A stretch of 64,000 bases of DNA from Cephalotus follicularis (Eukaryota > Streptophyta > Magnoliopsida > Oxalidales > Cephalotaceae), in contig BDDD01000894.1 in NCBI GenBank assembly GCA_001972305.1, forward strand, positions 62,001 through 126,000. Direction: 5' to 3'. Each line of letters begins with the position of its first letter. The first letter of the stretch is position 1. Positions 236 to 58,107 of the stretch are shown here, piece by piece. A program made the translations under genes and the position numbers. A model generated the notes under the pieces. It was not told where the DNA came from and did no database searches. It saw nothing but the letters and a program-made list of their open reading frames with translations.

Positions 236-1782
236 TGTCGTTGACCCGATTCAATATTACCCTAATCTAACAATTAGCAAAATGGAAAGTAGGGATCGTT
301 CCCACAAAGAGCTGTGACGATATACTATAAAAATGAACTTAGAATACTTAAACAAGAATAATAAATACTAAATTAATTTAACTAAGCAAACAATGTAAAT
401 GGAGAAACTTGAAGAGAGAATTGATTTGAATTAAACTACTTTAATGAGAAATTGAATTAATTATCTAATGCAATATGACAAAATAAAAATGAAATTAATA
501 TGAGAAAACAATTCTGTGGATGTGTGAATCCCCGCATGTATATATACTCAATTTCATGGCATAAATTCTGGTTTAAGGTAATATCACAGATATCATAGAA
601 AATAATGATTTAGCCTAGGTACACACCCTATCCTGTCAAAGCTTGATATTCTTGAAAGGATAATTTGTTAAAGGATGTCTTTGGTGCAATCACATAGAAA
701 AATTAAGAATCATCGCATGATGTGAATGAAATAGAGCTACAAGCACTAAAACATCATAACAGATTTTATATCATTAAAATTCCTTCTCATCAATGTTGCA
801 CATACATTAACAAGAAAAGATTGTCTTACAAACATGCTATTAAACTAGAAAACTAGATATTAATATATATATAACATGGGTTCATCTACATCCAGGGATA
901 AAAGTACTTAGCCGATCATGATGATGGAGACTGCAATAATCTTCAATTCGTTTTCCATCCAAGCAGTAGCCTTTTCTTCTTTTTTGTTTCACGTTAACCA
1001 GCCTCTCCTTGACCTGGCTTCTCTTTCTTTTTATACTCAGCTTATTGCCTGCAAAAAGGGAAAAAATCTAACCTATTACAATATGAATCAAACTATAAAA
1101 ACTTTCCAATTCTGGCACTTGATATGCCGTAAGCGTCGACGCTTAAGTCTTGGGCGTCGACGCTTAAGTGTTTTGCGTGAATGGTTTGATATGTTGAATG
1201 CGCTAGGCGTCGACGTTATTCTTGTGATATAGGGTATTTTTGAGTGTTAAGCGTCGACGTGTAAAATCAAGGCGTCGACGCATAACTGTGAATGTAGGAT
1301 GGCGTTGACGTCTTCCTCTTTGCCCGTCAACGTTTAAGCTACTTCTGAATTGTGCAATTATGGCGTTGACGTCTTGATCATGGAGTTAATGCCTAAAGAT
1401 TGAATTCCCAGCACGTTGACGCCTAAGCAATTGGTGTTGACGAAAATCATAAATCTATAGATTTGTTCATCATCAAGTGGAAAGCGTCGACGCTATCTTA
1501 GAAACCGTCAGTGCTTTAGAGTTAGGTGTTGATGCTTAAGTCTTGGCATCAAAGTCTTGCCCTGTTTTCTGCAAAATTTTGTTATTCTTCACACTTTTGA
1601 TCTTCTTTTCTTCTACTGCGCCAATTTTGTCTTGTGTTTCTGCATTTTGATCTTTTTGGTTCTTATATGAAAGTCATTCAAACACAACTAAAGTAATATG
1701 TTCCAAGCATAAAAATACAATAATTAACTCATTAAAAGCATACATTTTTATGCTTATCAAATACCCCCATGCTTGAACTTTA
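236..1782 (-). repeat. Athila-like LTR region, non-coding
   Basis: No coding sequence is visible. The right end (about 1690-1782) contains a poly-T-like ATGCTTATCA boundary followed by CCCCCATGCTTGAACTT, which on the reverse strand is a purine tract next to TGATAAGC, as expected for a polypurine tract and LTR start. The same sequence around the ATGCTTA boundary recurs near 7800-7895, upstream of the Athila-type gag. The left end holds a GATCGTTCCCACA-type block typical of Athila/Tat LTR-leader DNA. I infer a minus-strand 3' LTR of about 1.5 kb. The exact left end is uncertain. It contains the palindrome array at 1133-1555. Confidence 0.5.
1133..1555. repeat. GTCGAC palindrome array, GCGTCGACGC word
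   Basis: Fifteen perfect or decayed copies of a 10-bp palindrome start at about 1133, 1154, 1207, 1251, 1272, 1302, 1324, 1363, 1383, 1403, 1424, 1484, 1505, 1526 and 1546. They fall into pairs 20-22 bp apart. Perfect copies read GCGTCGACGC; most variants are CG to TG or CA changes (GCGTTGACG, CGTCAACG, GTGTTGATGC). The cluster is non-coding and lies inside an Athila-like LTR region. Its function is unknown; see the findings for the family-wide pattern. Confidence 0.8.
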
Positions 1783-1967
1783 TGTCACAGCCCGTTTTCA
1801 AGTAGAAACACATAAGGTGGTAAAGGCAATTAACATTAAGATTCAGCTCATGTAAATACCATAAAAAAATTTAAACTTTTAAACAAGATATCAGTTACGG
1901 AAGCATTAAAACTCATAAGCTGAAATCACGTAACGTGCATCCCATACTGTACGATACTAAATACAAG
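1783..1967 (-). repeat. Gypsy LTR fragment (gypsy C type)
   Basis: Starts TGTCACAGCCCG and matches the first ~190 bp of the LTR at 31584 almost word for word (GGTGGTAAAGGCAATT, GTTACGGAAGCATTA, GTGCATCCCATACTG). Only the terminal part remains. It is cut on the right at the Sirevirus LTR that starts TGAAAGACTACAAGAGG. In the sense orientation of this family it is the last part of the LTR on the minus strand. Confidence 0.8.
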
Positions 1968-2506
1968 TGAAAGACTACAAGAGGGGGGTGAATTGTAGAC
2001 TTTAAATAAATTATGAACTTTTTCGAAAAATTAGCCAAAATAAAAATTAAACTAACAATTCAAAAACAACAATTATATTCAAACAATTATACTAACAAAA
2101 TAAAGAGATAGAGTAGAAGAATGCAAACACAGTTTTATAGTGGTTCGGCTTAATCTCTTGCCTACGTCCACTTTTCTCAAGGATCTCCTTGAGTTTTCAC
2201 TAGTATCCGACCTCGAATACAATAGTTGTGATTGACCTCAATCACACACACAAGGGTTCACTTCGCTCAAATATTTGAACAAATACAAGAATGAATAGCT
2301 TTTTATATCACCTCTCAAAGGCTTGATATAGACTAAATTTGCTCACAATAATAGTTTGAAATAAGACAAGAACAACTCAGAGTAATGCTATGATTGCTGT
2401 ATGACTTGATTGATGTTTCTTGGTTGTTCTTGAGCCCTATTTATATTGTTTTTGATGAAAGAGCCGTTGTGTAATGTCTTGTAGCCGTTGGAATAATTTT
2501 GGAAAC
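1968..2506 (-). repeat. Sirevirus LTR fragment
   Basis: Begins TGAAAGACTACAAGAGGGGG followed by GTGAATTGTAGAC, the reverse complement of the TTCACCCCC...TTGTAG...TCA end typical of Sirevirus copia LTRs and similar to the LTR at 41969 in this window. It also carries the GTGGTTCGGC...CCTACGTCCAC block found in many plant LTRs. It is cut at 2507 by a chromovirus LTR, so it is partial. Confidence 0.65.
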
Positions 2507-2544
2507 TGTAACACCCCGTGTTATATTTTGGAGTATGCATTTTA

Positions 2545-2566
2545 AGTGTGTGTGTGTGTGTGTGTG
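2545..2566. repeat. (TG)n microsatellite
   Basis: About ten uninterrupted TG dinucleotides lie just inside the start of the chromovirus LTR. It also reads as (CA)n on the other strand, giving a spurious His-Thr run in translation. Confidence 0.9.
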
Positions 2567-11097: not shown

Positions 11098-12672
11098 TGA
11101 TGGAATCGTATAAACCGAATCCGGTGCCAAAATCGGACTTAGGCATATAGGCTGTAGAACAAAACAAAATCATACAAAATGGCAGCGGAAGAAGACCCAA
11201 TAAAATCTAAAAACAGTCCATAAGGCATGTCCACAGACCATATGGATCACCGCATCATCAACAGAATTGAATTGGTGTCAGCATAGCATACAATGGTGAC
11301 ACGCTTGCATGGCAAGAAGAGAAGGACCAAGAGATATACCCGCGGGTGAAGGCTCCTTCTTTCTCTGCCGCTACATGCTTGGGAAGACACTAAACACGTT
11401 GCTTCGAAAATCCCTGATACAAAAGCTACTCCAACCAGCAAAAACCAAGAACAAAGTGTATAAACTCTCTTTCTCTCACCAAGCTTAGAAAAGGTAAATT
11501 GATATTGACCAAAGATGTCAAAATCAATCCACCCTAGATAAGCACTTGCTTGATGTTTAACAATGAAGGGAACACACACAATATGCAGAGAGAAATTCGA
11601 CTTTCTCTTGCCCAGCAAAAACTATACAACTCCCCATACATTTTCTGCAGAAAATGCTTATCACTAGCCTCCTCCTTCTCTCTCCCACTCTCCTATTCAC
11701 TTAAGATCATGGTCCTCACTCCTAGGGAGTCTGTGGCTATGATCCCCACGTTCCCATAAATTACAAGAATGGGAGATGGCTGCTGGAGATGAGAGAGAAA
11801 ATGTGCCCACGAAGTGAGCTCGTGCACAGGTTGCACGTTCTGCTCAAAGACGTCGACGCCTTCCAAAGGACATCGACGCTCATGCAATGTGGCACTAAAA
11901 AATATCAACGCTTTCTAAAAGACATCGACGCCTATAAAAACGTTAAGCATCGACGTCTTTCTAAAAGGCGTCGACGCTTTGTTTGGCCAGTGAAGCAATA
12001 AGAGTCTAACTCTTTTAGTGATCTTATGTACCCTTCGAATATTGGTTAAGTAAGATCAAACATATGTGTTTCCACAAAATGCAAAATCCACATAACCGAT
12101 ATTTGACACCAAGACTTGATATGTCCAACATATTAAAGAACTTATCATTATAAGGCAGGGACCCTTTAAAATCTTGGTTAAAACAAGAGGTGTTCATAAA
12201 TTATCGAAATACCCCTAGGGTTCGGTTAAGCCATCCTAAATGGTCATTGACCAATTTAAATGCTATCGGAATAATATCTAATATTATCCAAATGGAAAAT
12301 TAATCTAATTAATTTTCCCACACCTCATAAACCCTAGATTTTCTAAGTCGTTGGTTCACGTGTACTATAATCCCTTGTCATGCTTGGCCCCGATTGAGAT
12401 CTAGGGTAAGGATATGTATCAACCCTAGATAATAACTCAATGGAATAAGGTAACCTATCTCACAGCCTCCATGCTAGGCATCCAACCTTATGTTAGGGCA
12501 TCACAAGTGTAAGCAGGTAAATAACAAACTACTTCAATTAAGTGATAAGACACAAGTGATATTGCCATATCAAAGTAGCACACATCATATATAAGGAATA
12601 AGATTGTTTCATCCAAGATAAGATATAATATGATAACCCATCTAAAGGCTTGTCGGGTCATTAGATCTAAGA
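11098..12672 (-). repeat. copia-1 LTR 1 (3' LTR), internally deleted
   Basis: On the plus strand it begins TGATGGAATCGTATAAACCG and ends TTAGATCTAAGA (the terminal CA pair is mutated). It is about 1575 bp, against about 2135 bp for LTR 2 and 2202 bp for the solo copy. At about 12441, after ACCCTAGATAATAACTCA, it jumps to AATAAGGTAACC, so roughly 560-570 bp present in LTR 2 (about 29205-29767) are missing. It carries the palindrome array at 11850-11977. Confidence 0.85.
11850..11977. repeat. GTCGAC palindrome array in copia-1 LTR 1
   Basis: Six copies in three pairs start at 11850/11870, 11902/11922 and 11947/11968 (20, 20 and 21 bp apart). The best copies are ACGTCGACGC and GCGTCGACGC. The last pair's spacer has the mirrored form CTTT-CTA-AAAG. 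Equivalent copies are found in LTR 2 at 19300-19427. Confidence 0.85.
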
Positions 12673-13380: not shown

Positions 13381-14628
13381 TTCAGATGTCTAAGGAGACA
13401 TCTTTCAAGAAAGATGAATTCCTTCGCCTATTGACAATAGGCCTCTTTTGGAATTCTCCATGCTAAACCTCTTCAGCACCTTGCTGATGTACTAGATTTG
13501 GGAAAGCCCAAGCAACCTATTGGATCTATCCCTGAAGATCCTAATACCCAGTATATAGGTGGCTTCTCCAAAATCTTTCATGGAAAAATTCTTAGTTAGC
13601 CATATCTTTGCAGACTGCAACATCCCTACATCATTCCCAATGAGTATAATGTCAGCTACATATATCACTAAGAAAGTGATAGTAGGTCCCTCTTACTTTC
13701 GATAAACACAGGGCTCATCTACATTTTTAACGAAGTCAAAAGCTTTGACTGCTTCATCAAAACGTAGATTCCAGCTACGAGATGCTTGCTTTAGTCCATA
13801 GATAGACCGTTCAAGCTTGCACACCATGTGCGGGTGCTCGGTAGATGTAAACCCCTCGGGTTGGGACATATAAATATCCTTTTCAAGACGCCCATTTAAG
13901 AATGCCATCTTGACATCCATTTGCCATATCTCATAATCATAATGAGCAGCAATAGCAAGCAAAATCCTAATGTATTTAAGCATGGCGATAGGTGAGAAAG
14001 TTTCAGTATAGTCAACTCCATGTCGTTGCCTATACCCTTTCGCAACTAATCGAGCTTTATAAGTCTTGATTTTTCCATCTGCATTCATCTTCTTCTTGAA
14101 GATCCATTTGCAGCCAATAGGCACTATGCCTTCGGGTGCTTCAACCAAATTCCATACTTGGTTGGAGTACATGGAATCCATTTCGGATTTCATGGCTCCT
14201 AGCCATGCTTCAGATTCAGTGCCTTGCACTGTCTCCAAGTAGCTGGCAGGCTCATCATCTTCAATGGCGTTTATCTCATCAGTACCATCAATGACGAAAC
14301 CATACCTCTCAGGTGCTAATGGGATTCTTCCTGTTCTCCTCAAAGGAGCTTTGCCTAACTGAGAACCATTCTCAGCCTGAGATCCAATCTCAGCTGTGTC
14401 TGTTGAAGGTCTAACCTCCAACTCCTCCATCTTCTGTGTGGTTTCTACCTGTGGCAACTCCTTGAGTTCCACCTTACACTCACTGTTTCCTTCAAGAAGG
14501 TATTCCTTCTCTAGGAACAAAGCATTTCACAAAATAAATATCTTTTGTTCGCTAGGGTGGTAGAAGTAGTATCCTTTTGTTTCTTTAGGATATCCCACAA
14601 ACCTACAACGGTCTGACCATGCTTCCAT
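13381..14628 (-). pseudogene. copia-1 reverse transcriptase (copy 1), YVAD
   Basis: The main stretch (13693-14520) runs from a Ser/Glu-rich linker into the copia RT: EAWLGAMKSEMDSMYSNQVW, GCKWIFKKK, ARLVAKGYRQRHGVDYTETF, the first catalytic region QMDVKMAFLNG, and YGLKQASRSWN. A stop (TAA) at 13693 is followed in frame by the active-site strand, which reads YVAD at 13651-13662 where copia elements have YVDD. One catalytic aspartate is lost. Another stop (TAG) near 13494 precedes YISKVLKRFSM. RT would copy the RNA to DNA; this one cannot. Confidence 0.88.
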
Positions 14629-16326
14629 CTAATTTGTGTCAAGCCTCTTGACATAAGCCGGACAGCCCCAAACCTTTAAATGGTTCAGGCTGGGTTTCCT
14701 CCTTGACCATACCTGGTATGGAGTAGAAGGCACAGATTTTGAAGGAATCTGATTCAAGATATAAGCAACTGTATCTAGGGCATAACCCCAGAGATAGGTA
14801 GGAAGATCAGTAAAAGACATCATCGATCGAACCATGTCTAACAAAGTCCGATTACTCCTTTTGGACACGCCATTATGCTATGGTGTTCCAGGAGGAGTCC
14901 ACTGAGATAGAATTCCGTTATCTCTAAGATAACCTAGGAATTCAGCTGAGATGTATTCTCCACCTCGGTCCGACCAAAGTATTTTAATCGATTTACCTGT
15001 TTGTTTTTCTACTTCATGCCAGAACTCCTTAAATTTCTCAAAGGATTCTGACTTGTGTTTCATCAGATACATATAACCATATCGAGATAAATCGTCAGTA
15101 AAGGTTATGAAGTAGATATAACCACCTTGCGCACGGACTGACATAGGACCACATACGTCAGTATGGACTAAACCCAGTAAGTCCATAGCCCTGTCTCCTT
15201 GACCAGAGAAGGGTGATTTGGTCATCTTTCCCAATAAACAAGATTCACAAGTTGGATAGGACTCTAAGTCCTGGATATCAAGGAGATCATCCTTAACCAA
15301 CTGTGATAGCCTAGCATCACTAAGATGACCAATTCTACAATGCCAAGTATAGGTTTTATTTAGCTCAGTTTCTCTTTGTCTTTTCTTATTATTACTTTGC
15401 TCAATGGACATGATATTTGATTGTGAAGTATTCAAGACATATAATCCATTGTTGATAACACTATTACCAACACAAACATTGTTCATATATATAAAACATC
15501 CAATGTCTTGGAATTCAAGCTCCAAGCCCAAAACACATAAGTGAGAAACACTTATAATATTCCTTACAATATTCATAACAAAGTAGCATGGATCCAAAGT
15601 TAATACATAACCATTAAAAAAATTAACATCACAAATTCCAACAGCTTGAGGAATGATTCTAGATCCATCACCAAGCCTCCAGTCCAGGTCTCCTGCTCCA
15701 AGCTTTCTAACTTTTCTTAGTCCCTGCAATGAATTGCAAAGGTTAGTTCCACATCCAGTATCTAATACACATGAAGAACTACTATTCAAAGCTAGATTAA
15801 GTTCAATCATGAACGTACCTGATGTACTCACACCATGCGGGTTATCAGCAGAGACAGCAGCAACAACAACACAACAATCCTTTTTCCAGTGCCCGGTCTT
15901 ACCGCACTGGAAACAAGCACCTTCAGCAGCTAACTTCTTCATCCAATCTTTGGAAACACTCCTACTGGCTCCAACCTTCCCCTTCTTCTTCTTTTGCTTC
16001 TTCTTACCCTTGCCTTTTGTGTTGACAGGCATGAGCACGCCCTTCCCTTTGCAGGAAGATGAGGCACTTCCATTTCCTTGGGCAGACCTAGAAGATGGAA
16101 GAGGTAGGGAGTGGGTGTTTGACTTCCCAGAGTCAAAATCGGCCTCAGCCGTCCTCAACATAGCTATCAGCTCAGACAGAGTCACCTCTATCTTGTTCAT
16201 GTGAAAGTTCACCAAAAACTGTGAGAACGACTTAGGAAGGGATGTCAAAATAATATCCACATATAGATCATGGTCCATGACAAACCCCAATTGAGCCAGC
16301 TGCTCAATCATGTCTATCATCTTCAA
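14629..16326 (-). pseudogene. copia-1 gag C-terminus, protease and integrase
   Basis: In order: the end of the Gag domain (SLPKSFSQFLVNFHMNK), a Ser/Lys-rich linker, a zinc knuckle CFQCGKTGHWKKDC, a copia protease with CVLDTGCGTNLCNS (catalytic D-T-G kept), the GAG-pre-integrase zinc domain (TWHCRIGHL, CESCLLGKM), then the integrase core with HTDVCGP and SDRGGEY. A TAG at 14878 follows WTPPGTP. The same frame continues [16 protein letters not shown], where the usual catalytic glutamate of NGVSER is a lysine. The C-terminal [13 protein letters not shown] and [10 protein letters not shown] region follows. So integrase has both a stop and loss of its DDE glutamate. Confidence 0.9.
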
Positions 16327-16726
16327 TCCATGCTCATGAACTGAAGATCCCTCTTACATCTGAGCCTTAAAGAGTTTACGTGATAGATTGAACCTTTGAG
16401 TCCTAGACTCAGCTCCATACATCTCCTGGAGATGGAGTAGTATAGCACATAAGGTCTCAATCTTCTCATTCTGACGTAGAAGCTCAGGTGTCATCCCAAG
16501 AAGGGCAAGACATCTAGCCTGCTCGTCATCTTCTAGCCACTTGGCTAGTCGCTCACTCTCTTCGGGCGTCGGATCTTCACCTAGTGAAGGAGGCCCCCCG
16601 AGTCATCACATAGGCCATTTTATTGGCCGTAAGGACGATCTTGAGGTTACGATGCCAATCATTGAAGTTGGGCCCATCAAGTTTGTTTGTCTCAAGTATA
16701 CGGGACATTGCATTTGATAAAGCCAT
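16327..16726 (-). pseudogene. copia-1 gag N-terminus
   Basis: Start codon at 16724-16726 (MALSNAMSRILETNKLDGPN, then FNDWHRNLKIVL), the typical start of copia UBN2-type Gag. A run of six G (C on the plus strand, near 16595) puts the next part out of frame. The continuation PPSLGEDPTPEESERLAKWL and LHLQEMYGAESRTQRFNL is read in the other frame, and a TAA near 16350 precedes EGSSVHEHGLKMID, which joins the next segment. One frameshift and one stop therefore separate this from the rest of gag. Confidence 0.85.
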
Positions 16727-18010: not shown

Positions 18011-18249
18011 ACGTCGATGCTTCCCTGAAGGCGTCAACGCATTTCACGAAAACTGTTGCAAAAGGCATCGACGTTTATCAACAACATCGACTCGTTTCCT
18101 GGGAATAGATGAACAAAGCATCGACGTTTATCAAGAACATCGACGCGTTTCCTGGAAATGATGAACAAGGCATCGACGTCTATCAAGAACGTCGATGCAT
18201 TTCCTGGAAAGATGAACAAGACATCGACGTCAATCAAGAACGTCGACGT
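18011..18249. repeat. GTCGAC palindrome array as 51-53 bp tandem units
   Basis: A pair at 18011/18031, then four tandem units starting 18065, 18118, 18170 and 18221. Each unit contains GCATCGACGT, TTATCAAGA(A), a second (A)CATCGACGC-like copy 19 bp later, and TTTCCTGGAAA...GATGAACAA(G). The TTTCCTGGAAA link between pairs is itself a near-perfect palindrome. This cluster sits in the leader, not the LTR. Confidence 0.85.
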
Positions 18250-18547: not shown

Positions 18548-19476
18548 TGATGGAATCGTATAAACCGAATCCGGTACCAAAATCGGACTTACGTATATAT
18601 GGTGTAGAACAAAACAAAATCATACAAAATGGCAGTGGAAGAACACCCAATAAAATCTAAAAACAGTCCATAAGGCATGTCCACAGACCACATGGATCAC
18701 CACATCATCAACAAAATTGAATTGGTATCACCGTAGTATACAATGGTGACACACTTGCATGGAAAGAAGAGAAGGACCAAGACATATACCAGCGGGTGAA
18801 GGCTCCTTCTTTCTCTGCCGCTACACGCTTGGGAAGACACCAAACACGTTGCTTCCAAAAACCTTGATACAGAAGCTACTCCAACCAGCAAGAACCAAGA
18901 ACAAAGTGTATAAACTCTCTTTCTCTCACAGAGCTTAGAAAAGGTAAATTGATATTGACCAAAGATGTCAAAATCAATCCACCCTAGATAAGCACTTGCT
19001 TGATGTTTAACAATGAAGGGAACACACATAATCTGCAGAGAGAAATTCAAATTTCTCTTGCCCAGCAAAAACTCTACAACTCCCCTTACATTTTCTACAG
19101 AAAATGCTTATTACTAGCCTCCTCCTTCTCTCTTCCACTATCCCATCCACTTAGGATCATGGTCCTCACTCCTAGAGAGTCTGTGGCCATGATCCCCACG
19201 TTCCCACAACATGCAAGAATGGGAGATGGCTGGTAGAGGTGAGAGAGAAAACATGCCCACGAAGTGAGCTCGTGCACAGGTTGCACGTTCTGCTCAAAGA
19301 CGTCGATGCCTTCCAAAGGACATCGACGCTCATGCAATGTGGTACTAAAAAATATCGACGCTTTCTAAAAGACATCGACGCCCATAAAAACGTTAAGCAT
19401 CGACGCCTTTCTAAAAGACGTCGACGCTTTGTCTGGCCTGTGAAGCAATAAGAGTCTAATTCTTTTAGTGATCTCA
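18548..19476 (-). repeat. copia-1 LTR 2, left half (split by gypsy A)
   Basis: Begins TGATGGAATCGTATAAACCG next to the primer-binding site and matches LTR 1 from 11098 closely. It includes the palindrome array. It is interrupted at 19477 by gypsy A, directly after TCTCA. The LTR resumes at 28789 with TGCACCCTTCGAA. LTR 1 shows the uninterrupted equivalent (GATCTTATGTACCCTTCGAA near 12022). Confidence 0.9.
19300..19427. repeat. GTCGAC palindrome array in copia-1 LTR 2
   Basis: Six copies (ACGTCGATGC, ACATCGACGC, ATATCGACGC, ACATCGACGC, GCATCGACGC, ACGTCGACGC) are paired as in LTR 1, with about 20-21 bp between starts. Single-base differences from LTR 1 are mostly CG/TG or CG/CA exchanges. Confidence 0.85.
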
Positions 19477-19970
19477 TGTCACACCCCGCTTGCATTAACA
19501 ACATACAACATGGCAATTTAACAGATATCCAGCTCATACAGAGAACGATAAAATTTAAAACTTTGAAAAAGACATCAAACTTGTGGAAGCATTTATATAA
19601 GCTGAAAGCAAACGGAACCATGCGTCCCATACCACATGATTCCCACAACATCCATAGCATAACATAGATAAAAAGCCTGCGAACAGAGCATGATCCAAAA
19701 GTCGATCAACAACAGAAAAACATTAGTACATTAATCCAAAGTACATCATGTTTTTAAGTACACCGCTTTACAAAACATTAAAGCAAAATAAACTCTGTCA
19801 TATCACATCCCGACATAGCCTTGCTCAGCGATATCCCAAACGTTGCTTCAATCTGTAACAGTAGGGGGTTAGCCTTTGTCCTCACTCGGCCAAAGTCAAA
19901 AAAGCAACATAAGATCAACAAAACCCAAGCATGAATGCAACATGATGCAGTACATACTATATCTCGATGC

Positions 19971-19972
<2 letters not shown>

Positions 19973-20002
<30 letters not shown>
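19973..20002. repeat. (TA)n microsatellite in gypsy A left LTR
   Basis: About 14 AT dinucleotides. The matching site in the right LTR (26995-27008) has only about six or seven, so slippage occurred after insertion. Confidence 0.9.
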
Positions 20003-20006
<4 letters not shown>

Positions 20007-20668
20007 ATGTATATGTATATATGCCAACCACGATGTCACGATGTCACAATTCACGATCGCAAACAAGTCCAAAGGACTACACAATACTCGGTTCACGGTA
20101 GGTACGAAGAGCGTCGCCAACTCCTGGCCCCGACGTCGTACTCCTGACATCGGCCCCGACTCCGGACGGCACGAAGCATGTCACGGTACAATGAGTCGCC
20201 CAGCCAACTCCTGGCTCCTGAGTCAACCCGACCACTAGTCATCTCTGGCATCTCCGCCACGCAACTAGTACGGTCACAATCAAAATCACAATCAGCAAAC
20301 CACAGTCAACTCAGTCACAATCACAGTCATCTCGATGCTCAAAACAGTTTTCCAAGTAATTTATAAAACAAAATACTTGAAAACAAACTCATTTTCATGA
20401 TGTCACGGTTCTCGGTTCTCAATATCACAAAACTCGGTTCACGGTGTTTTTGGAAGTCATTTTCACGGTTCGAAAATATATATTTTCTCAAAACATATAT
20501 TTTCGTGTAAAGTAATGACTTTCATTAACTACAATGCACTTCCAGAAAGATGATATAACAGTTCGAACTCAATAATCACAATGCTCAAAACAGTTCATAA
20601 AGCTTTACAAAGCAGTTCATCACAATATACGATGCATACACATGTTCACAGGGCAAAACAGGCCCTAA

Positions 20669-20959
20669 CAGTCGGTTGCCTCCCACTGGCAGTCGGCTGT
20701 TCCCCTCACAATAGTCGGCTGCCCAACCCAGGCAGTCGGCTACACATACTGGACAGTCGATTGTCTCACTAGACAGTCGGCTGCTAACACTCAACAGTCG
20801 GCTGTCCACACCCAACAGTCGGCTGCTGACCTACAGCAGTCGACTCACAACCTCTGTAGACACTTCTCGAAGACACACACATGGGCAGTGGACTGCCCTC
20901 TCAAGAATAGTCGGTTGGACCCATTGAGCAGTCGACTGCCCAACGTGGGCAGTCGGCTG
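20669..20959. repeat. CAGTCGRCTG palindrome array 1, gypsy A left LTR
   Basis: Thirteen copies start at 20669, 20690, 20712, 20733, 20754, 20774, 20795, 20816, 20837, then 20886, 20908, 20929, 20950. Neighbour distances are 20-22 bp, mostly 21, within two runs. The commonest form is CAGTCGGCTG on the plus strand; perfect palindromes CAGTCGACTG also occur. Spacers of about 11 bp vary. Spacers are not a multiple of a codon phase that would give a protein, and no long frame exists. Confidence 0.92.
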
Positions 20960-21478
20960 GATTCTGCAGCAGATGTAAAAACCAGCGGCTAAAAGCAGCC
21001 ACAACACACACCCAACTTAACCCAAAACATCACATTTATGCAACAACATATTCCAGGCTCACAATATAAGATAAAAATGCGTTTCATTTCGAAGAAAACA
21101 TTAACAGTTGAAATTACGTGCGAAAACGACTTTCACCCTACCTTAGAACTCCAAGTTAGGAGCTGCAATCCGCCTCTTTAAGTCCAAATCCGAGGCTCTT
21201 GCACTCCCTAACACGTTCAACAACCTCCAATAGGTCCGATCTTCCACTGTCAAGCCTCCAAGCTTTCGGTTTCAACACAAACTCCGTATGTCCTCAACAC
21301 ACACGCACTTTCACTCTCAAACTCACTTGAAATCAGAGAGAAGGATTGAGATTGAGGAGAGGAAAGCTGTGTTTTTATAAGAGCAACCCGGCCCCTCCTC
21401 TGCCATCTGCCCAAATAAACCAAAACACTCCCCTTTTGTCACTTCAAGCTGACAGTGCGTGGGCTGTCTGGCTCATGG

Positions 21479-47643: not shown

Positions 47644-47883
47644 AAATGGTGTCAGAGATAGATTTGATGCATATATATAGTTAGAAACATGTTTGTTGAT
47701 GATATGCTTGAATTGTTTGGGTTTAATCTATGAGACGGAAGCATGGCATGCAAATTTGCGATTCCCTATAGTCGCGAAAGCGTCGATGCTTTCAAGAAAA
47801 GCATCGACGGCTATGCACGATACCACTGCAGGAAATCGCACCAAGATGGATAAGCATCGATGCTTTCGCGGAAAGCGTCGACG
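47644..47883 (+). other. copia-3 primer-binding site and start of leader
   Basis: TGGTGTCAGAG at 47647-47657 follows the LTR by three bases; it resembles the initiator tRNA-Met complement with one G for A. The next 225 bases are non-coding and contain the palindrome pairs 47780/47801 and 47854/47875. Interrupted by gypsy B at 47884. Confidence 0.8.
47780..47883. repeat. GTCGAC array in copia-3 leader, left part
   Basis: Pairs GCGTCGATGC/GCATCGACGG and GCATCGATGC/GCGTCGACG(T), each 21 bp apart. Spacers TTTCAAGAAAA and TTTCGCGGAAA are self-complementary, so each pair can form a long stem with a 2-3 base loop. The last copy is cut at 47884 by gypsy B. Confidence 0.9.
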
Positions 47884-49164
47884 TGTCACACCCCGTTTAA
47901 AGAGAAGGTAACATTAAAGCAGTAAAGGCAATTAACACATAAATACAGCTCATGTAAAACCAATAAAAATTTAAACTTTTAACAAGCTGTCAGTTGCGGA
48001 AGCATAAATTCATATGCTGTAACCCGTAACGTGCATCCCATACTACACGCTACTCAACAAGTCCATCATTGTTAATCGCCCACAAAATGGAGCGTGATCA
48101 TAATACAAGATTTAAATCCATCATAAGTTACATCCATCAGAATGATACATCAGAAACCCTTTGACAACTCAGTTTATTACACAATAGGAGAATAGTAAAA
48201 CTAGAACAACATAACACTTGCTCTTCGTCCGTGCCAATCCAACAGTCCACTGCATCAATCTGTAAAGTAGGGGGTTAGCCTTTGTCCTCACTAGGCTAAG
48301 TCATAAAAGTAGTTTGGGATTAAAATTAAATGCATGTCATGATGTGAATGCATGAATGATGCAGTGCAGTAGAAATTCCAGTTTATATATATATGAAAAT
48401 ATATATATTTAACAGTACGGTAAAATATCAGTGGGTACATATATAAGAAAATATATGTATGCAGAAACAGTACAGTAGTAACCTGGCCAGGGCTACATCA
48501 ACAAGCATAGTAATGTCCGAGAAGGACTAACATGCAGTATAGGATGTCCACATAGTACCACATACACAGGCAGTATGTGAAACGCCGCCAACTCCTGACC
48601 CCACGATACACTCCCACTCCGGTTCCTGCTCCAGGAAACCGAGCGAGGCAACAGTACAGTGAGTTACCCAGCCATACTCATGGCCCCTAGGTCAACCCTA
48701 CCACTAACCGGAGCTGGCAGCCTCCGCCATACAGCTAGTGGCTCAAGCACAAACACATAACAATTCACAGAGCAAACAGTGAATTCAAGCAGTAACAGTA
48801 CAGTAAACAGGACAGTAGTGATCGTTTAGATCCACAACAGGCAGATTACTTCCAAAATGTTTCAAAAGTGACAACATTTGAAATATTGCAGTTTCAGTAG
48901 AAAATACTTTTAAACAGTTTCAGTAGCAAAAATCGCTTTCCAAAGATGTTTGAAAATACGATATCAATATTCGTTTGTACTCAAAATAGCAGTCTCAATT
49001 CACATATGCATTTCTAAATTAACAACACGTTAGAAATCATAATTCGAGTACAAACAGTACAAACAGGCAGTAAACAGTACATATACAATGCATACAAATG
49101 CTGAAATGCATTCTAGCTGGAATCGGGATCGTTTCGCATCATTTTAGGCAAACAGCAGTCCAAC

Positions 49165-49421
49165 CAATCGACTGGAATCCTTACCAGTCGACTATTCTGG
49201 GTCGAGCAGTATCAGTAGTCGACTGGTTCCTTCTACCAGTCGACTGTCCATTAGGCAGTCGGCTGTTGTTCTTCAACAGTCGACTATTACAGTGCACCCA
49301 TACGAGAACATTCCCAGATTACCATTTTCTGGCAGTGTGAAGTATGAACAGTCGACTGCTTTCCATTGGCAGTCGACTGGTCTCATTGAGTAGTCGACTG
49401 TCTTCCTTCGACAGTCGGCTA
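49165..49421. repeat. CAGTCGACTG array 1, gypsy B left LTR
   Basis: Starts at 49165/49185, 49216/49237/49256/49277 and 49349/49370/49391/49412. Distances are 19-21, mostly 21. Spacers mirror at their edges: GG(T)...(A)CC, TTG...CAA, TC...GA. It begins about 75 bp after CAATGCATACAAATGCT, the same place where gypsy C has GCGTCGACGC copies. Confidence 0.92.
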
Positions 49422-50248
49422 CTCTGCGAACCAGTGGCATGCAAATCGATCTAACTACTCCAACGGATCATGGTAAGCAGATAACTTAAGCTCAGGGAGA
49501 GGAAATACAACTACAGGTTGTCATATCATCCATATAACAGTTTATCCAACATTCATTTCATCATGCAAGCCAAAGCCATATAAGGTTCAACATGCATGCA
49601 CAATAATCACATTGATTCTCAGTAGCAAGCATAACAGCTCCCAAAACAGTAGCAAATACGTCCTAAATCAGTAGCTACAAGTCGTATAACCAGTCATTTC
49701 AAATCATAGAGCATGTAGTAATTTTAAGCTCAAAATACCATTACAACTTCCCCTACCTTTAATTCCAAGTTAGGAATCTGTAAGTCCACCTCTTTGCGTT
49801 CCAATCAGTGACGTACCGAGCTCTCTAGAAGCTCCAACTCCAAGCCCAGCAGCTCCAAGGATGACCCAACAGCTCCAACTCCAGCTCCAAGTTTCAACAG
49901 TGGTAAAAACACTCTTCTTCCATCTTTTCTTTGTGTCTTTCTCTACTGTTTTCTCTGGTTCTCTAACCTTTCAGTACCAGTACGAGGGAGGTGAGTGAAG
50001 ACGTTTTTTATGCAGAGTCTTTCTTCCTTTTCTTCCTTCACTCCTCACATGGCACTAAATTCCACACTCTCCCATTCACATGCATGCACACACTCACAGG
50101 TCTGATTTCCCTGCCCCATGAAGTTTTGCATGATGCACAGGTGTCCTCTCCTTCCATCCATTCGGCTGCATGAAGCACGGATGGCCTCCACTTCCAATGT
50201 GAGTTGTAACATGTGATTTCTGTCACATGCAACAAATAGAGCATGATC

Positions 50249-50399
50249 CAGTCGGCTGCCTTTCCCTGGCAGTCGGCTGTTCGCCTGGCAGTCTTTTGCC
50301 AAGTGTCATGACAGTTGGCCAGTCGACTGGTTCATCCTACCAGTCGACTGCCCCCATATGCAGCCATCCAGTCGGCTGGTCTTCCATGCCAGTCGACTG
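50249..50399. repeat. CAGTCGRCTG array 2, gypsy B left LTR
   Basis: Starts at 50249/50270/50289, 50320/50341 and 50369/50390 (21, 19, 21, 21). Forms are CAGTCGGCTG and CAGTCGACTG, plus a decayed CAGTCTTTTG. Confidence 0.9.
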
Positions 50400-50621
50400 C
50401 CCCCAGTGTATTTGCAAGTAATCACACTTCTAAGTACATAATTGATTCAAAATTAACATCATCATGGTTTGGGAAAACATCATCAAATTCGGAAAAATCC
50501 ATCACTTTATTGATTTCACAAATAAGGTACGTTTACATTGTGAAATTACAATACATGATAATTACGGGCCTTACATCCACCCCTCCTTCAAAAGAATTTC
50601 GTCCCCGAAATTCAAAACAAT

Positions 50622-52124
50622 CTAGAACAGGTGCGGGTAGCGTTCTCGAATATCCTCCTCACGCTCCCAAGTTGCTTCATCAGGTCGGTGGAACTGCCAC
50701 TGAACCTTCACCATGGAGATGGTTCGGTTGCTTAAAATCTGCGTCTTCCGATCAAGAATCCGCACAGGAAATTCCTCACAGGATAGATCATCTTGCATCG
50801 AAACAGTATCATGATCCAGGACATGTGACGGGTCCGGGACATATCTCTTCAGCATAGATACATGGAAGATGTCATGCACGTTTGACAGTACAAGAGGCAA
50901 GGCAAGCTGGTAGGCTACCTCCCCAACTCTCTCCAGAATGTCGAAAGGACCAATGTAGCGAGGAGCTAATTTGCCCTTCCTTCCAAACCTTTGCACGCCC
51001 TTCCATGGTGAAACCTTCAAGATCACATGATCACCCATACTAAAGGTCAAAGGCCTTCTCTTGACACTGTCCACACAGCTCTTCTCCCAGCTCTGAGTAG
51101 CAAGCAGCTTCTTTTTTATCGGCCTGATCTTTTCTGAAGTTTCCTCCACTAATTCAGTCCCGAGTAAAGGTCGCTCCCCGACCTTATCCCAATACACAGG
51201 AGGTCTGCACTTCCTCCCATACAGTGCCTCAAACGGTGCCATGCCGATACTGGAATGATAGCTGTTATTATAAGAGAACTCTATCAGAGGAATGTGATCC
51301 TCCCAAGTACCAACAAAATCAATAATACAGGCCCGTAGCATATCCTCCAGGCTCTGGATGGTAAGCTCAGATTGCCCATCGGTCTGAGGGTGGAAGGCAG
51401 TACTCAGGTTCAACTTCGTCCCGAAAGCTGTCTGAAATCTCTTCCAGAAGTTGGAAGTGAAGATAGCATCTCTATCACATACGATGCTGACTGGAACACT
51501 GTGGAGTCTCACTATCTCCTTCACATACAAACGAGCTAGCTTGCTCACAGAATCGGTAACATGTGTAGGCAGAAAGTGCGCTGATTTGGTTAGTCTGTCC
51601 ACGACAACCCACACGGCATTGTGACGGATCCGAGTCAAAGGAAAACCCGAAACAAAATCCATCGTAACATGTTCCCACTTCCACTCTGGAATTGGCAAAG
51701 GTTGTAGCAAACCTGCCGGTCTCTGGTGCTCGTCCTTAACTATCTAGCAAGTCAAGCACCTTGCCATATACTCAGCGATCTCCCGCTTCATGCCGGGCCA
51801 CCAGTAACACTTCTTCATGTCTTGATACATTTTAGTGCTACCAGGATGAATACTGTACAGAGATTTATGAGCCCCACGAAGTAACTCATCCTTCAGTCTT
51901 GGTTCATTTGGAAGACACACACGTCCTCGATATCTCATAATACCATCAGCATGCACTCAAAAATCGGATTCTGAGTCCAAGTTCTCTCGAATCCGTTGCA
52001 ACTCCGGATCATGGGGTTGTGCATCCCTGATTTGATCCAGTAACACAGGCTGTACTCGCAAGTCAGCTAAAAAGATCCCCGGTGACTGATTAAACAGAGA
52101 GCATTCTTGGAAGTCTTCTAACAT
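50622..52124 (-). pseudogene. gypsy B integrase
   Basis: In the gag-pol frame. After a stop at 52125 it reads through LEDFQE to a TGA at 51957, the zinc-binding domain ([41 protein letters not shown]) to a TAG at 51744, then the core with [27 protein letters not shown] and QTDGQSE, all three acidic residues present, and the C-terminal region (GRKGKLAPRYIGPFDILE, VHDIFHVSMLKRY), ending in a chromodomain-like EATWEREEDIRERYPHLF. The D-D-E triad is intact, so this is among the best-preserved integrases here; only two stops interrupt it. Confidence 0.92.
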
Positions 52125-54338
52125 CTACCATTGCGACACCATCGTACTGGCAAGCATAGCCTTGCGGCTCAAGGTATCAGCGACTACATTCGCTTTCCCC
52201 GGGTGATACTGGACACTACAATCATAATCATTAAAGAATTCTACCCACCTGCACTGTCTCATGTTCAGTGTGTCCTCACAAAATAGGTACCTCAAGCTCT
52301 TGTGATCGGTGAAGATCTCAAACTGTGCCCCATAAAGATAGTGCCTCCACTTCTGAAGGGCGAAGCCAATAGCTGCAAGTTCAAGGTCATGAGTCGGGTA
52401 GTTTTCTTCATACGGCTTTAGCTTCCTCGAGGCATACGCAATCACCCTGCCTCGCTGCATCAATACACAGCCCAAACCCTTACCTGATGCATCACTATAC
52501 ACTGCAAAGCCTTCATTACCATCAGGTAATGCCAAAACAGGAGCGAAAACCAACCGATCCTTCAGTTCATGAAAACTAGCCTCACAGTCTTCGTCCCTGA
52601 CAAAAGGGGTCTTCTTCTGGGTCAGTCTAGTCAAGGACTTGGCTATCCTTGAAAAATTCTGGATAAACCTCCTGTAATATCCCGCCAAACCAAGGAAACT
52701 GCGCACCTCCGTCACATTCTTCGGTTGCGGCCAGTCTCGTAGTACTTTAGTCTTTGACGGATCCACTGCCAAGACTTCTCCGGATACTATGTGACCGAGA
52801 AAGATCACATGGTCAAGCAAGATTTCACACTTGCCGAACTTGGCGTACAATCGGTGTTCTCTGAGAACTTGCAATACTAGCCTCAGATGATGAGCGTGCT
52901 CCTCCTTGCTCCTCGAATATACCAGTATGTCATCAATAAATACCACAACAAACTGGTCCAAGTATGGTCGAAATACGTCATTCATCAATGACATCAAAGC
53001 TGCCGGTGCATTGGTAACACCAAACGGTATCACCAGGAACTCGTAATGACCATACCGTGTCCGGAAGGCAGTCTTCTCAATGTCTCCTTCCCTTACTCGC
53101 AGTTGGTGATAACCTGAGCTCAAGTCGAGCTTGGAAAACACCCTTGATCCTTGCAACTGATCAAACAACTCCTCAATGTGGGGTAAAGGATATTTATTCT
53201 TGATAGTTGCCTTGTTCAACATTCGGTAGTCGATATAGAGCCTGATTGACCCATCCTTCTTCTTGCCAAACAGTACAGGTGCTCCCCACGGGGAAACACT
53301 AGGTTGAATAAAACCCTTATCGATCAAGTCTTGCAACTGCAATTTCAGTTCCCTTAATTCTGCAGGAGCCATTCTATACGGTGCTTTAGAAATAGGAGCT
53401 GTACCAAGTATAAGATCGATAACAAACTCCATATTTCTCCTCGGTGGCAAAGACCCCAAGTCATCAGGGAACACATCCGGAAATTCACACACAACTGGAA
53501 TTTCCTCCAAGCTCAAGCCTTTCTCTTTCCTTCGATCTATCACATAGGCCAGATATCCCTCGCATCCCTTCTCTAGGTATCTCGATGCTCGGATAAAGGA
53601 TATGATCGGTGTCGAGAACCCCTTGTCTCCCTTGAACTGAAAAGTCGTTCCATCGGGCAGACAAAAATCCACAGTCTTATTGTAGCAATCCATGCGAGCA
53701 CGGTGTGCTGATAGCCAATCCATCCCCAATATAACGTCAAAGTCACGGATAGGCAGCACAATCAAATCTGCATACAAAGGAATGCCTACCATAGATATCT
53801 CACAACTCCTATATACCGAGTCAGTATACATGGAAGTCCCAGTCGGTGTACTCACATCAAGTATGTATGACATGCAGTCAGGGGTGACATCTAAACAAGA
53901 TGCAAAACGTGCAGATATAAAAGAATGTGATGCTCCAGAATCCATCAGTACCCTAGCAGAATAACCATATATGTACAGAGTACCTCCAACAACAGAAGTC
54001 AACTCTGGAACCTCTGTCTGAGCAAGTACAAAAATTCTACCTTTTGCGATGCCCTTGCCGGTATCTCTCCTCTGTGACGGTCCCGCCGCCGCACCGCTGC
54101 TACTCCCCGGCCCAGTAGGCCCTGTAGCAGGACTCTTTGGACAGTCCTTCACTGAATGACCAGGTGCCCTGCACCTCAAGCACCAACCATTGAATCTCCA
54201 GCAATCTTTTTGTTGGTGGCCGGTATGACCACAATAATAGCATCCTCCAGATCTAGCATTACTTCCCTGGCTAGGAGTACCATGTGAAGCTGTCTGTTGA
54301 GAGTTGTTCTTTGATGACTTCGTCGGAGAACCACCATC
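52125..54338 (-). pseudogene. gypsy B protease, reverse transcriptase and RNase H (long open segment)
   Basis: About 738 codons free of stops. Two zinc knuckles come first ([14 protein letters not shown] and [14 protein letters not shown]), then protease [41 protein letters not shown] with [44 protein letters not shown] and the active site FIDDILVYS; and RNase H with [37 protein letters not shown] and [10 protein letters not shown]. It ends after MVSQW with TAG at 52125. Active-site residues of protease, RT and RNase H appear intact. Confidence 0.93.
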
Positions 54339-55297: not shown

Positions 55298-56582
55298 TCT
55301 TGTCACACCCCGTTTAAAGAGAAGGTAACATTAAAGCAGTAAAGGCAATTAACACATAAATACAGCTCATGTAAAACCCATAAGAATTTAAACTTTTAAC
55401 AAGCTATCAGTTGCGGAAGCATAAATTCATAAGCTGTAACCCGTAACGTGCATCCCATACTACACGCTACTCAATAAGTCCATCATTGTTAATCGCCCAT
55501 AAAACGGAGAGTGATCATAATACAAGATTTAAATCCATCATAAGTTACATCCATAAGAATGATACATCAGAAACCCTTTGACAACTCAGTTTATTACACA
55601 ACAGGAGAATAGTAAAACTAGAACAACATAACACTTGCTCTTCGTCCATGCCAATCCAACAGTCCACTGCATCAATCTGTAAAGTAAGGGGTTAGCCTTT
55701 GTCCACTCTCGGCTAAGTCATAAAAGTAGTTTGGGATTAAAATTAAATGCATGTCATGATGTGAATGCATGAATGATGCAGTACAGTAGAAATTCCAGTT
55801 TATATAAATACGAAAATATATATATTTAACAGTACGGTAAAATATCAGTCGGTACATATATAAGAAAATATTTGTATGCAGAAACATTATAGTAGTAACC
55901 CGGCCAGGGCTACATCAACAAGCACAGTAATGTCCGAGAAGGACCAACAGGCAGTACAGGATGTCCATATAGGACCACAACAACAGGCAGTATGTGTAAC
56001 GCCGCCAACTCCTGGCCCCATACCAGACTCCCACTCCGGTCCCTGCTCCAGGCAACCGAGCGAGGCAACTGTATAGTGTGTTACCCAGCCATACTCCTGG
56101 CCCCTAGGTCAACCCTACCACTAACCGGCGTTGGCAGCCTCCGCCATGCAGCTAGAGGCTCAAGCACAAACACATAACAATTCACAGAGCAAACAGTGAA
56201 TTCAAGCAGTAACAGCACAGTAAACAGGACAGTAGTGATCGTTTAGATCCACAACAGGCAGGTTATTTCCAAAACGTTTCAAAAGTGACAACATATGAAA
56301 TACTGCATTTTCAGTAAAAAAATACTTTTAAACAGTTTCAGTAGCGGAAATCGCTTTCCAAAGATGTTTGATAATACTATATCAATATTCGTTTGTACTC
56401 AAAATAGCAGTCTCAATTCACATATGCATTTCTAAAGTAACAACACATTAGAAATAGTAATTCGAGTACAAACAGTACAAACAGCCAGTAAATAGTACAT
56501 ATGCAATGCATACAAATGCTCAAATGCATGCTAGCAGGAATCGGGATCATTTCCCATCGTTTTAGGCAAACAGCCGTCCAAC

Positions 56583-56839
56583 CAGTCAGCTGGAATCCTT
56601 ACCAGTCAACTGTTCTGGGTCGAGCAGTATCAGTAGTCGACTGGTTCCTTCTACCAGTCGACTGTCCATTAGGCAGTCGGCTGTTGTTCTTCAACAGTCG
56701 ACTGTTACAGTGCACCCATACGAGAACATTCCCAGATTACCATTTTCTGGAAGTATGAAGTATGAACAGTCGACTACTTTCCATTGGCAGTCAACTGGTC
56801 TCATTGAGTAGTCGACTATCTTCCTTCAACAGTCGGCTG
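56583..56839. repeat. CAGTCGACTG array 1, gypsy B right LTR
   Basis: Same layout and number of copies as 49165-49421. Some copies differ by CG/CA changes (CAGTCAGCTG, CAGTCAACTG), others are better preserved here (CAGTCGACTGTTAC where the left copy has CTATTAC). Confidence 0.9.
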
Positions 56840-57666
56840 CTCTGCGAACCAGTGCCATGCAAATCGATCTAACTACTCCAACGGATCATGGTAAGCAGAT
56901 AACTTAAGCTCAGGGATAGGAAATACAACTACAGGTTGTCATATCATCCATATAATAGTTTATCCAACATTCATTTCATCATGCAAGCCAAAGCCATATA
57001 AGGTTCAACATGCATGCACAATAATCACATTGATTCTCAGTAGCAAGCATAACAGCTCCCAAAATAGTAGCAAATACGTCCTAAATCAGTAGCTACAAGT
57101 CGTATAACCAGGCATTTCAAATCATAGAGCATGTAGTAATTTTAAGCTCAAAATACCATTACAACTTCCCCTACCTTTGATTCCAAGTTAGGAATCCGTA
57201 AGTCCACCTCTTTGCGTTCCAATCAGTGACGTTCTGAGCTCTCCAGAAGCTCCAACTCCAAGCCCAGCAGCTCCAAGGATGGCCCAATAGCTTCATCTCG
57301 AGCTCCAAGTTTAAACAATGGTAAAAACACTCTTCTTCCCTCTTTTCTTTGTGTCTTTCTCTATTGTTTTCTCTGGTTCTCTAACCTTTCAGTACCAGTA
57401 TGAGGGAGGTGAGTGAAGATGTTTTTTATGCAGAGTCTTTCTTCCTTTTCTTCCTTCACTCCTCACATGGCACTAAATGCCACACTCTCCCATTCTCATG
57501 CATGCACACACTCACAGGTCTGATTTCTCTGCCCCGTGAAGTTTTGCATGATGCACATGTGTCCTCTCCTTCCATCCATTCGGCTGCATGCAGCACAGAT
57601 GGCCTCCACTTCCAATGTCAGTTGTAACATGTGATTTCTATCACATGCAACAAACAGAGCATGATC

Positions 57667-57817
57667 CAGTCGACTGCCCTTCCCTGGCAGTCGGCTGTTC
57701 GCCTGGCAGTCTGTTGCCAAGTGTCACGACAGTTGGCCAGTCGACTGGTTCATCCAACCAGTCGACTGCCCCCATATGCAGCCATCCAGTCAGCTGGTCT
57801 TCCGTGCTAGTCGACTG
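57667..57817. repeat. CAGTCGRCTG array 2, gypsy B right LTR
   Basis: Counterpart of 50249-50399 with the same spacing. First copy is CAGTCGACTG here and CAGTCGGCTG in the left LTR. Confidence 0.9.
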
Positions 57818-58032
57818 TCCCCAGTGTATTTTCCAAGTAATCACACTTCTAAGTACATAATTGATTCAAAAGTAACATCATCATGGTTTGGGAAAATATC
57901 ATCAAATTCGGAAAAATCCATCAATTTATTGATTTCACAAATAATGTACGTTTACATTGTGAAATTACAATACATGAAAATTACAAGCGTTACATGCTTA
58001 TGCGCTAAAGCGTTTATACGCTAGGCGCTAAA

Positions 58033-58107
58033 GCATCGACTCTTTTGAGAAAAGCGTCGAAAACTACGCAGTAAAGGATCAACGCTTTTGAGAAAACGCG
58101 TCGATGC
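58033..58107. repeat. GTCGAC array in copia-3 leader, right part
   Basis: GCATCGACTC/GCGTCGAAAA at 58033/58054 and GGATCAACGC/GCGTCGATGC at 58076/58098, 21 and 22 bp apart. Both spacers contain TTTTGAGAAAA, a perfect 4-bp stem with a GAG loop. This continues the cluster cut at 47883. Confidence 0.85.

Follow-up and report, generated by a model that had tools for sequence, protein, structure and literature searches.

Spaced arrays of two GTCGAC-centered palindromic words in Ty1/copia and Ty3/gypsy retrotransposons of one plant genome

Several retrotransposons in the window, i.e., the whole 64,000-nucleotide stretch of Cephalotus follicularis DNA analyzed here, carry clusters of a 10-bp palindrome centered on GTCGAC, which raises the question of what such arrays are and what might read them. 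A search of the window recovered the words where the initial annotation had placed them (7 GCGTCGACGC, 16 CAGTCGACTG, and 21 CAGTCGGCTG). The cores consist of GTCGAC with outer GC/GC or CA/TG, and the two words are designated word A (GCGTCGACGC) and word B (CAGTCGACTG).

The first word-A array (1133..1493, no strand assigned) comprises nine sites with gaps of 21, 53, 44, 21, 30, 61, 50, and 71, and beside it the stretch 1562-1760 shows a 72% match to LTR-adjacent DNA of a non-chromovirus gypsy element at locus L022. The element copia-1 lies on the minus strand, with pol pieces at 13693..16353 (RVT_2, rve, and gag_pre-integrs; Pfam), and bears five word-A sites at 11850..11977 in its 3' LTR repeat (about 11097-12443, ends inferred) and five at 19300..19427 in the 5' LTR, which is split by gypsy B. 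An additional array of eight word-A sites, partly a 52-bp tandem repeat, is present in the copia-1 leader (18011..18249, minus strand), and an inverted copia-1-related LTR stretch contains six word-A sites on the plus strand (35711..35852). Gypsy B (minus strand; target duplication TCTCA) consists of a 3' LTR (19477..21757), pol in several frames (22562..25564; protease, RVT_1, RNase H, and integrase by Pfam), and a 5' LTR (26498..28785; primer-binding site at 26493), the two LTRs being 94% identical. Its word-B arrays comprise four sites in array 1 (3' LTR, 21479..21610; 5' LTR, 28507..28638) and 12 in array 2 (20669..20959 and 27676..27987), all on the minus strand. Gypsy A is represented by an LTR (31580..34152, minus strand, ends from alignment) homologous to those of gypsy B and C, with word A on the minus strand in array 1 (four sites, 33862..33959) and array 2 (five sites, 32940..33090). 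Gypsy C, also on the minus strand, has 94.8% identical LTRs (3', 47884..50576; 5', 55301..57995, primer-binding site at 55296) and a pol in two frames (50622..54338; Pfam) with the chromodomain of a Ty3/gypsy chromovirus, which scores slightly under the Pfam cut-off. Its minus-strand word-B arrays contain seven sites in array 1 (50159..50399 and 57577..57817) and 10 in array 2 (49165..49421 and 56583..56839). Four word-A sites (47780..47884, no strand assigned) abut the left end of gypsy C, the last one at the junction, and a degenerate word-A array of five sites (58033..58212, no strand assigned) lies to its right, upstream of a plus-strand copia element.

With up to two mismatches allowed, the window contained 18 clusters of at least three sites, with 102 neighbor gaps. 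The 57 gaps of 19-23 bp counted earlier by hand were found again, 37 rather than about 33 of them being exactly 21 bp; the claim that all gaps fall between 19 and 23 bp could not be upheld, as 45 of the 102 lay outside this range (18, 25-34, 41-53 bp, and longer). Further gap sizes near 28 and 50 bp were observed. The non-coding location was borne out, since ORFs bearing Pfam retroelement domains held 0 of 79 window sites at 0-1 mismatch and 5 of 133 at up to two mismatches.

In the 1.58-Gb genome, word A occurred 73,186 times against 121 for the reversed control, A-A pairs 4,236 times against 7, and B-B pairs 48,687 times against 166, an enrichment of words and pairs of about 290 to 605 times, in which both the counts and the ratios are inflated by element copy number. 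Among the matches listed, the spacing was 19-23 bp in 43 of 50 word-A pairs and 19-22 bp in 57 of 69 exact word-B pairs, with a second distance class of 27-28 bp in the latter (12/69). GTCGAC alone among the 64 palindromic hexamers showed a clear 19-23 bp peak in 334 kb (59 pairs, whereas the ranges of 12-18 and 24-28 bp together held 2). The comparison with shuffled sequence proposed at the outset gave 120 observed pairs at 19-22 bp against 2 in one Markov shuffle of 200 kb from other loci. The arrays are real and occur genome-wide with a spacing peak at about 21 bp.

It had also been suggested that the palindromes would all face the same side of the helix. Pair distances gave a best period of 10.3 bp, and upon removal of near-multiples of 21, the local-jitter control yielded p = 0.07 and the plain Rayleigh test 0.002. 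Same-face phasing was weak beyond two turns, and helical phasing as the organizing rule was rejected owing to the 27-28 bp class among exact B pairs and the jitter result. A gap of 27-28 bp corresponds to a non-integer number of helical turns.

The two words are rarely mixed. Genome-wide, exact A was found next to exact B in only four places, and 59 of 63 clusters were purely A or purely B. Word A is carried by copia-1, gypsy A, L009, and the non-chromovirus gypsy in L022, and word B by gypsy B, gypsy C, and the Sirevirus-like copia elements L011, L023, and L027, i.e., both words are present in Ty1/copia and in Ty3/gypsy. The earlier figure of at least seven unrelated families has to be lowered, as the LTRs of gypsy A, B, and C are homologous; at least four deep lineages stand. 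Gypsy B and gypsy C share 77% identity over 4.9 kb, and the reverse transcriptases of copia-1 and L011 share 40%. L011 and L027 are likely Sireviruses, judging from the poly-C stretch preceding their primer-binding sites. The number of sites per LTR was 16 in gypsy B, 17 in gypsy C, and 9 in gypsy A, and long clusters in L011, L023, and L027 held 14-18. Single-linkage grouping, which placed 46 of the 63 clusters in 10 groups, was rejected as a family count as it merged nested elements. L019, considered as a word-B copia, was left out of the copia count because its two arrays join the gypsy LTR group and an array in L024, respectively.

The relation between word and lineage is best seen in L009, a close relative of gypsy C that bears the other word (A) and whose U3 is hardly alignable to that of gypsy C. 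Per 100 columns, the two LTRs showed 69-92% identity downstream of column 1600 against 26-60% over columns 100-1600. This drop suggests that U3 was replaced or rebuilt and not edited site by site; a concerted point-mutational switch of the word in gypsy was rejected, since the LTRs are diverged upstream and similar downstream.

Word A is symmetric to about 16 bp. On the sense strand, word B has T in 80 and C in 56 sites at position 4, and A in 132 and G in 3 at position 7, an asymmetry suggesting that the putative protein may recognize the site in one orientation. Of 62 pairs of the asymmetric B variant within 130 bp, 61 were oriented alike; the pairs are not independent of each other. The LTR arrays of gypsy A, B, and C and of copia-1 are in or near the 5' half. 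In gypsy A and C, TATA-like sites occur downstream of the arrays; they are not unique, which leaves their assignment ambiguous. From LTR position and a weak TATA guess, we infer that the arrays lie in U3.

Site conservation was evaluated on two time scales. Between elements, sites differed less than spacers in all 14 ordered comparisons (nine element pairs), e.g., 14 site differences where spacer context rates predict 42.1; these comparisons share elements, their sites were chosen by resemblance to the word, and aligning LTRs that have diverged tends to bring similar cores into register. Between the two LTRs of the same insertion, 66 site differences were observed against 62.9 expected from cytosine context in four insertions. 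L029 was rejected as a fifth pair, since both of its copies contain integrase DNA and hence do not represent the LTR pair of a single insertion. Once an element has inserted, its sites decay as other methylated cytosines do. CG and CHG cytosines are frequent at the array sites (in a set including L029).

It is rather probable that these arrays form part of a U3 regulatory module and bind two trans-acting, probably host-encoded proteins, with a likely activating role. Of the readings offered by the initial annotation, a binding array for a dimeric protein is the one favored by the two-turn spacing, by sites that are kept as spacers change, and by the separation of the words. The arrays would be situated in the fast-evolving U3 module (in copia-1 also in the leader), each 10-bp palindrome (about 16 bp with flanks for word A) binding a symmetric, probably dimeric protein, and the spacing of about 21 bp, or two helical turns, would put neighboring dimers on one face and allow joint binding. 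Words A and B may be read by separate proteins, or by two classes within a single family, that recognize the common GTCGAC core with different outer bases. Host proteins appear most likely because both superfamilies use both words. Occupancy would most likely activate the element in those cells in which transposition takes place, acting as an enhancer and/or a shield against methylation. DREB/CBF proteins were considered as candidate binders, as their consensus RYCGAC fits GTCGAC and GCCGAC; GTCGAC was absent from the papers listed by a literature search on these candidates.

The arrays could instead be targets of a retrotransposon-encoded, VANC-like trans-acting protein that would demethylate and coevolve with its motif, an analogy that we regard as unlikely to hold. 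The available text of Hosaka et al. (2017, PMC5735166) describes VANC targets of VANDAL transposons as short, tandem, same-orientation, noncoding, family-specific motifs, with related VANDAL families using different ones. The present arrays are similar in being noncoding and in one orientation (61 same, 1 opposite for the B variant), in their richness in CG and CHG cytosines, and in the different words of related elements. However, VANDALs are DNA transposons with a TE-encoded protein, and their motif YAGTATTAY is rare outside its own family (PMC5735166, available text). In the interior of gypsy C (50577-55300), the sense frames of at least 150 aa are the two pol frames only. Moreover, the words are common to copia and gypsy, which are not known to share any gene outside gag-pol.

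It is improbable that the arrays serve a host silencing factor as landing sites or form a small-RNA hotspot, being retained only because old and new copies alike are targeted by the host. LTR palindromes of maize Sireviruses are small-RNA mapping hotspots according to the available part of PMC5311732, and the divergence of LTR pairs shows methylation-type decay at the sites. However, harmful sites should vanish from successful lineages, yet these are kept between elements, and their decay equals that of other same-context cytosines (66 vs 62.9), so that they do not appear to be special silencing targets.

It is very improbable that the arrays are functionless minisatellites that expanded through slippage of 21-bp units. 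In several arrays, Tandem Repeats Finder detected such units (66-94% matches), and slippage probably creates new sites. Spacer and site do not drift alike, however: the 10-mer stays while spacers diverge (spacers changed more in 14/14 comparisons), 21 distinct spacers were present among 49 word-A pairs, and the same core recurs across several deep lineages with the words unmixed. An RNA feature for dimerization, packaging, or hairpins of neighboring self-complementary words, also raised at first annotation, has a slimmer chance still: any two copies could pair, and copia-1 has its leader array, but the LTR arrays of gypsy A, B, C, and copia-1 are in or near the 5' half, and the common sense-strand word-B variant CAGCCGACTG weakens pairing with CAGTCGACTG through a C.A mismatch, with no G.U wobble. 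A 21-nt phased siRNA register, suggested by the common spacing of 21, is hardly credible given gaps that scatter over 19-23 bp or lie near 28 and 50 bp, and phasing needs no palindrome.

Leader or LTR arrays attracting a host or stress factor have precedents in the Su(Hw) site array of Drosophila gypsy and the BII boxes of Tnt1, which are confined to single families and have other motifs. The initial annotation gave the palindrome-rich Sirevirus LTRs of maize as background, and the repeated motifs (RM boxes) of Bousios et al. (2010, PMC2829016) are closer to the present arrays than it stated. In the accessible parts of that report, RMs number at least eight copies, are CpG-rich and clustered in the upper LTR half with divergent flanks, have a CGG-CCG core in all but Tnd-1, and are stated to be confined to Sireviruses and missing from classic elements. 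Similarly, at least eight palindrome copies are present here in the LTRs of gypsy A, B, and C and in the long clusters of L011, L023, and L027, and the Vitis Sirevirus RM CGGTCGACCG shares the GTCGAC center (PMC2829016, accessible parts). In contrast, the core here is GTCGAC and not CGG-CCG, and the carriers include gypsy A, B, and C, L022, and another copia; the same parts of PMC2829016 contain no spacing rule or Ty3/gypsy sharing, which differs from the 21-bp spacing and two exclusive words found here. A 2016 maize study (PMC4728375, as cited in the available part of PMC5311732) reported fast-evolving palindromes in the LTR regulatory region, but in maize Sireviruses. These words or a motif shared by copia and gypsy were not found in a literature search covering titles and abstract openings, with few subscription papers. 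Features that appear to be new are the occurrence in both superfamilies, the spacing, and the mutual exclusion of the two words.

On a wider scale, it is quite possible, and we propose it tentatively, that the two orthogonal palindromes constitute a genome-wide regulatory code across Ty1/copia and Ty3/gypsy, with 21-bp-spaced arrays of one word per element, a change of word through exchange or fast rebuilding of U3, and two regulons under two paralogous host DNA-binding proteins (or one selfish trans-acting set of them). If true, unrelated retrotransposon lineages of one genome would converge on or exchange two control words, and much of the plant retrotransposon community would be two regulons and not many separate families. 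The contrast between post-insertion decay and between-element conservation may serve as a general test for functional LTR sites. The words could be used as bait for the proteins controlling the timing of retrotransposon activity, an issue that dates from the 2010 report of Sirevirus LTR palindromes.

The window contains all the words listed in the initial annotation, i.e., 7 GCGTCGACGC, 16 CAGTCGACTG, and 21 CAGTCGGCTG, and 51 GTCGAC in total; the GCGTCGACGC type is referred to as word A and the CAGTCGACTG type as word B. With a cluster taken as three or more sites, up to two mismatches allowed, the window showed 18 clusters with 102 neighbour gaps. The claimed spacing of 19–23 bp was observed in 57 of these (37 at exactly 21 bp), and the remainder fell outside it. 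All 79 window sites with at most one mismatch lay outside ORFs with a retroelement domain. A comparison sample was drawn at fixed positions, not strictly at random, from contigs C5 to C955 as 27 stretches of 10 kb each; 17 stretches showed a cluster, and 15 an array in which two or more gaps were of 19–23 bp. The 297 gaps of its 45 clusters comprised 177 at 19–23 bp (96 at 21), none at 24–26, 17 at 27–34, and 1 at 35–38.

The arrays were compared with one Markov shuffle of the first 20 comparison stretches (200 kb). Exact words numbered 51 vs 0 after shuffling, one-mismatch words 92 vs 2, two-mismatch words 144 vs 56, and pairs 19–22 bp apart 120 vs 2. Two-mismatch sites alone are thus weak evidence, and the array result is carried by the spacing and the better-matching words. 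In a scan of the 64 palindromic hexamers with no word set in advance, GTCGAC alone showed a clear 19–23 bp peak, with 59 pairs at that distance vs 2 at 12–18 plus 24–28 bp (ATATAT, 55 vs 173). When 8-mers of any kind repeated at 19–23 bp were sought de novo, chiefly the same words were returned, along with a small number of other repeats, e.g., in loci L018 and L021 and at 42.5–45.7 kb of the window. L021 (72–9982) is a ∼10 kb stretch rich in the 8-mer GAAACGAT, often at 19–23 bp intervals, and likely a satellite. Window positions 43716–45336 are packed with tandem repeats whose units include 19, 24, 27, 29, and 96 bp; an open frame there, at 44372–44863, gave no Pfam match.

Across the genome searched (1.577 Gb, 9,746 contigs), probably that of a plant judging by its retroelements and size, word A occurred 73,186 times vs 121 for the reversed word, and like words with starts 10–40 bp apart formed 4,236 A–A pairs (7 for the control) and 48,687 B–B pairs (166), counts that are inflated by element copy number, an effect that the control leaves uncorrected. 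The proposed 21-bp spacing held for most pairs listed, 43 of 50 A pairs lying at 19–23 bp; of 69 B pairs, 57 lay at 19–22 bp and the other 12 at 27–28 bp. The two words were largely exclusive: 32 of 63 clusters were A-type only, 27 B-type only, and 4 mixed, and, set against the like pairs, exact A lay within 0–30 bases of exact B at 4 places genome-wide.

The strongest period of pairwise site distances was 10.3 bp, and 122 of 222 gaps in 38 arrays, hand-picked to represent different sites, were of 19–23 bp. A Rayleigh test at 10.4 bp on gaps of 24–130 bp gave p = 3e-5, and p = 0.002 with near multiples of 21 removed; against a local jitter control, the latter gaps gave p = 0.07. With this value and the 27–28 bp class, which is ∼2.7 helical turns, the spacing by two turns is well supported, but helical order over longer distances is not. 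Doublets of sites 21 bp apart, with about 28 or 50 bp between doublets, were a frequent arrangement.

In copia-1 (RVT_2 pol), word A is present in both the LTR and the leader; it is also carried by the gypsy A LTR, by L009, and by the non-chromovirus gypsy of L022. The L022 element shares 94% identity in gag with the window gypsy gag at 6803–7507, and in the RT region it shares 31% with gypsy B and 35% with gypsy C. Gypsy B, gypsy C (which has a chromodomain), and L015 carry word B, as do the L011, L023, and L027 copia elements. Hence, both words occur in both superfamilies and in at least four deep lineages. The families are not all unrelated, as had been supposed: the LTRs of gypsy A, B, and C are homologous (B vs C, 77% over 4.9 kb). 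In the L011 and L027 copia elements, a poly-C stretch precedes the primer-binding site, resembling the Sirevirus integrase signal in PMC2829016. That paper reports repeated palindromes in Sireviruses, with 8 to 32 copies in each element (CGGTCGACCG in Vitis), and calls them Sirevirus-specific. Within the literature searched, judged by titles and abstract openings, no account of the present words or of motifs shared with gypsy came up. Arrays of a word A relative whose centre is asymmetric (GCGTCAACGC or GCGTTGACGC), possibly a third word, were seen at L031 (2735–8203), where the array DNA matched none of the pol pieces of the window. In window positions 18547–29205, gypsy B (19477–28785) is inserted in the copia-1 5′ LTR with a 5-bp target duplication, TCTCA, and the LTR seems to resume at 28786–29205. 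In positions 47860–58010, gypsy C lies within or beside a word A array of another element; no matching 5-bp target duplication was visible by eye, which suggests recombination or deletion at one edge.

The two LTRs of each of four insertions (gypsy B, gypsy C, L009, and L015) differed at 66 of 709 site positions (9.3%), 100 of 1,979 spacer positions (5.1%), and 275 of 6,911 remaining positions (4.0%); L029 was dropped as not a clean LTR pair, and its inclusion gave the same picture. The higher site divergence is due to cytosine context: difference rates in the rest of the LTRs were 17% at CG, 12% at CHG, 6% at CHH, and 0.8% at A/T, and array sites are rich in CG and CHG. As 66 site differences were seen vs 62.9 expected from these rates, inserted sites decay like other CG/CHG cytosines. 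Between elements the order was reversed, sites differing less than spacers in all 14 ordered comparisons (9 pairs), which share elements, favour well-kept reference sites by defining sites in one element, and include some hand-set LTR ends. Relative to spacer context rates, L024 vs gypsy C showed 14 site differences for 42.1 expected (reciprocal, 16 for 31.1) and L027 vs L011 showed 6 for 19.8 (reciprocal, 4 for 7.8); among the weakest were 8 for 11.0, 8 for 10.9, and 42 for 55.9. Taken together, decay within insertions and conservation between elements point to selection that would act between insertions, over rounds of transposition.

L009 and gypsy C are 89% identical across a 737-aa protease, RT, and RNase H frame and 65–80% in integrase pieces. 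In their LTRs, compared as far as the L009 locus extends, 100-column blocks downstream of column 1600 of the alignment are 69–92% identical, and those over the array-holding columns 100–1600 just 26–60%. Over the latter columns, L009 is 70–90% identical to gypsy A in 10 of 15 blocks and 40–63% in 5. L009 and gypsy A hold A words and gypsy C holds B words, the two arrays being at similar LTR places. The alignments are those of a U3, the LTR regulatory part, apparently swapped or rebuilt along with its word; either mode fits the data.

In element sense, which is less certain for L008, L019, L025, and L028, the palindrome of word A extends over about 16 bp, WAAGCGTCGACGCYTW, in a set of 88 sites. 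Word B reads CAG(T/C)CGACTG, with T in 80 and C in 56 of 136 sites; the mirror position 7 is G in 3. In 14 of 18 elements, the right half was closer to its word than was the left half, and pairs of the asymmetric word B variant up to 130 bp apart ran in the same direction in 61 cases and in opposite directions in 1. As this variant occurs in both gypsy and Sirevirus-like copia elements, a protein may read the site with direction. The arrangement best fits a symmetric protein that would sit on 10–16 bp palindromes two turns apart, at sites probably kept by selection in the LTR regulatory part. The best rival reading is anti-silencing in trans of the type of VANC, the anti-silencing protein of VANDAL transposons. 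The sharing of the words across superfamilies favours host factors as the putative readers, and their mutual exclusivity favours two binding specificities. The effect would be activating, since the sites are maintained in the element lineage.
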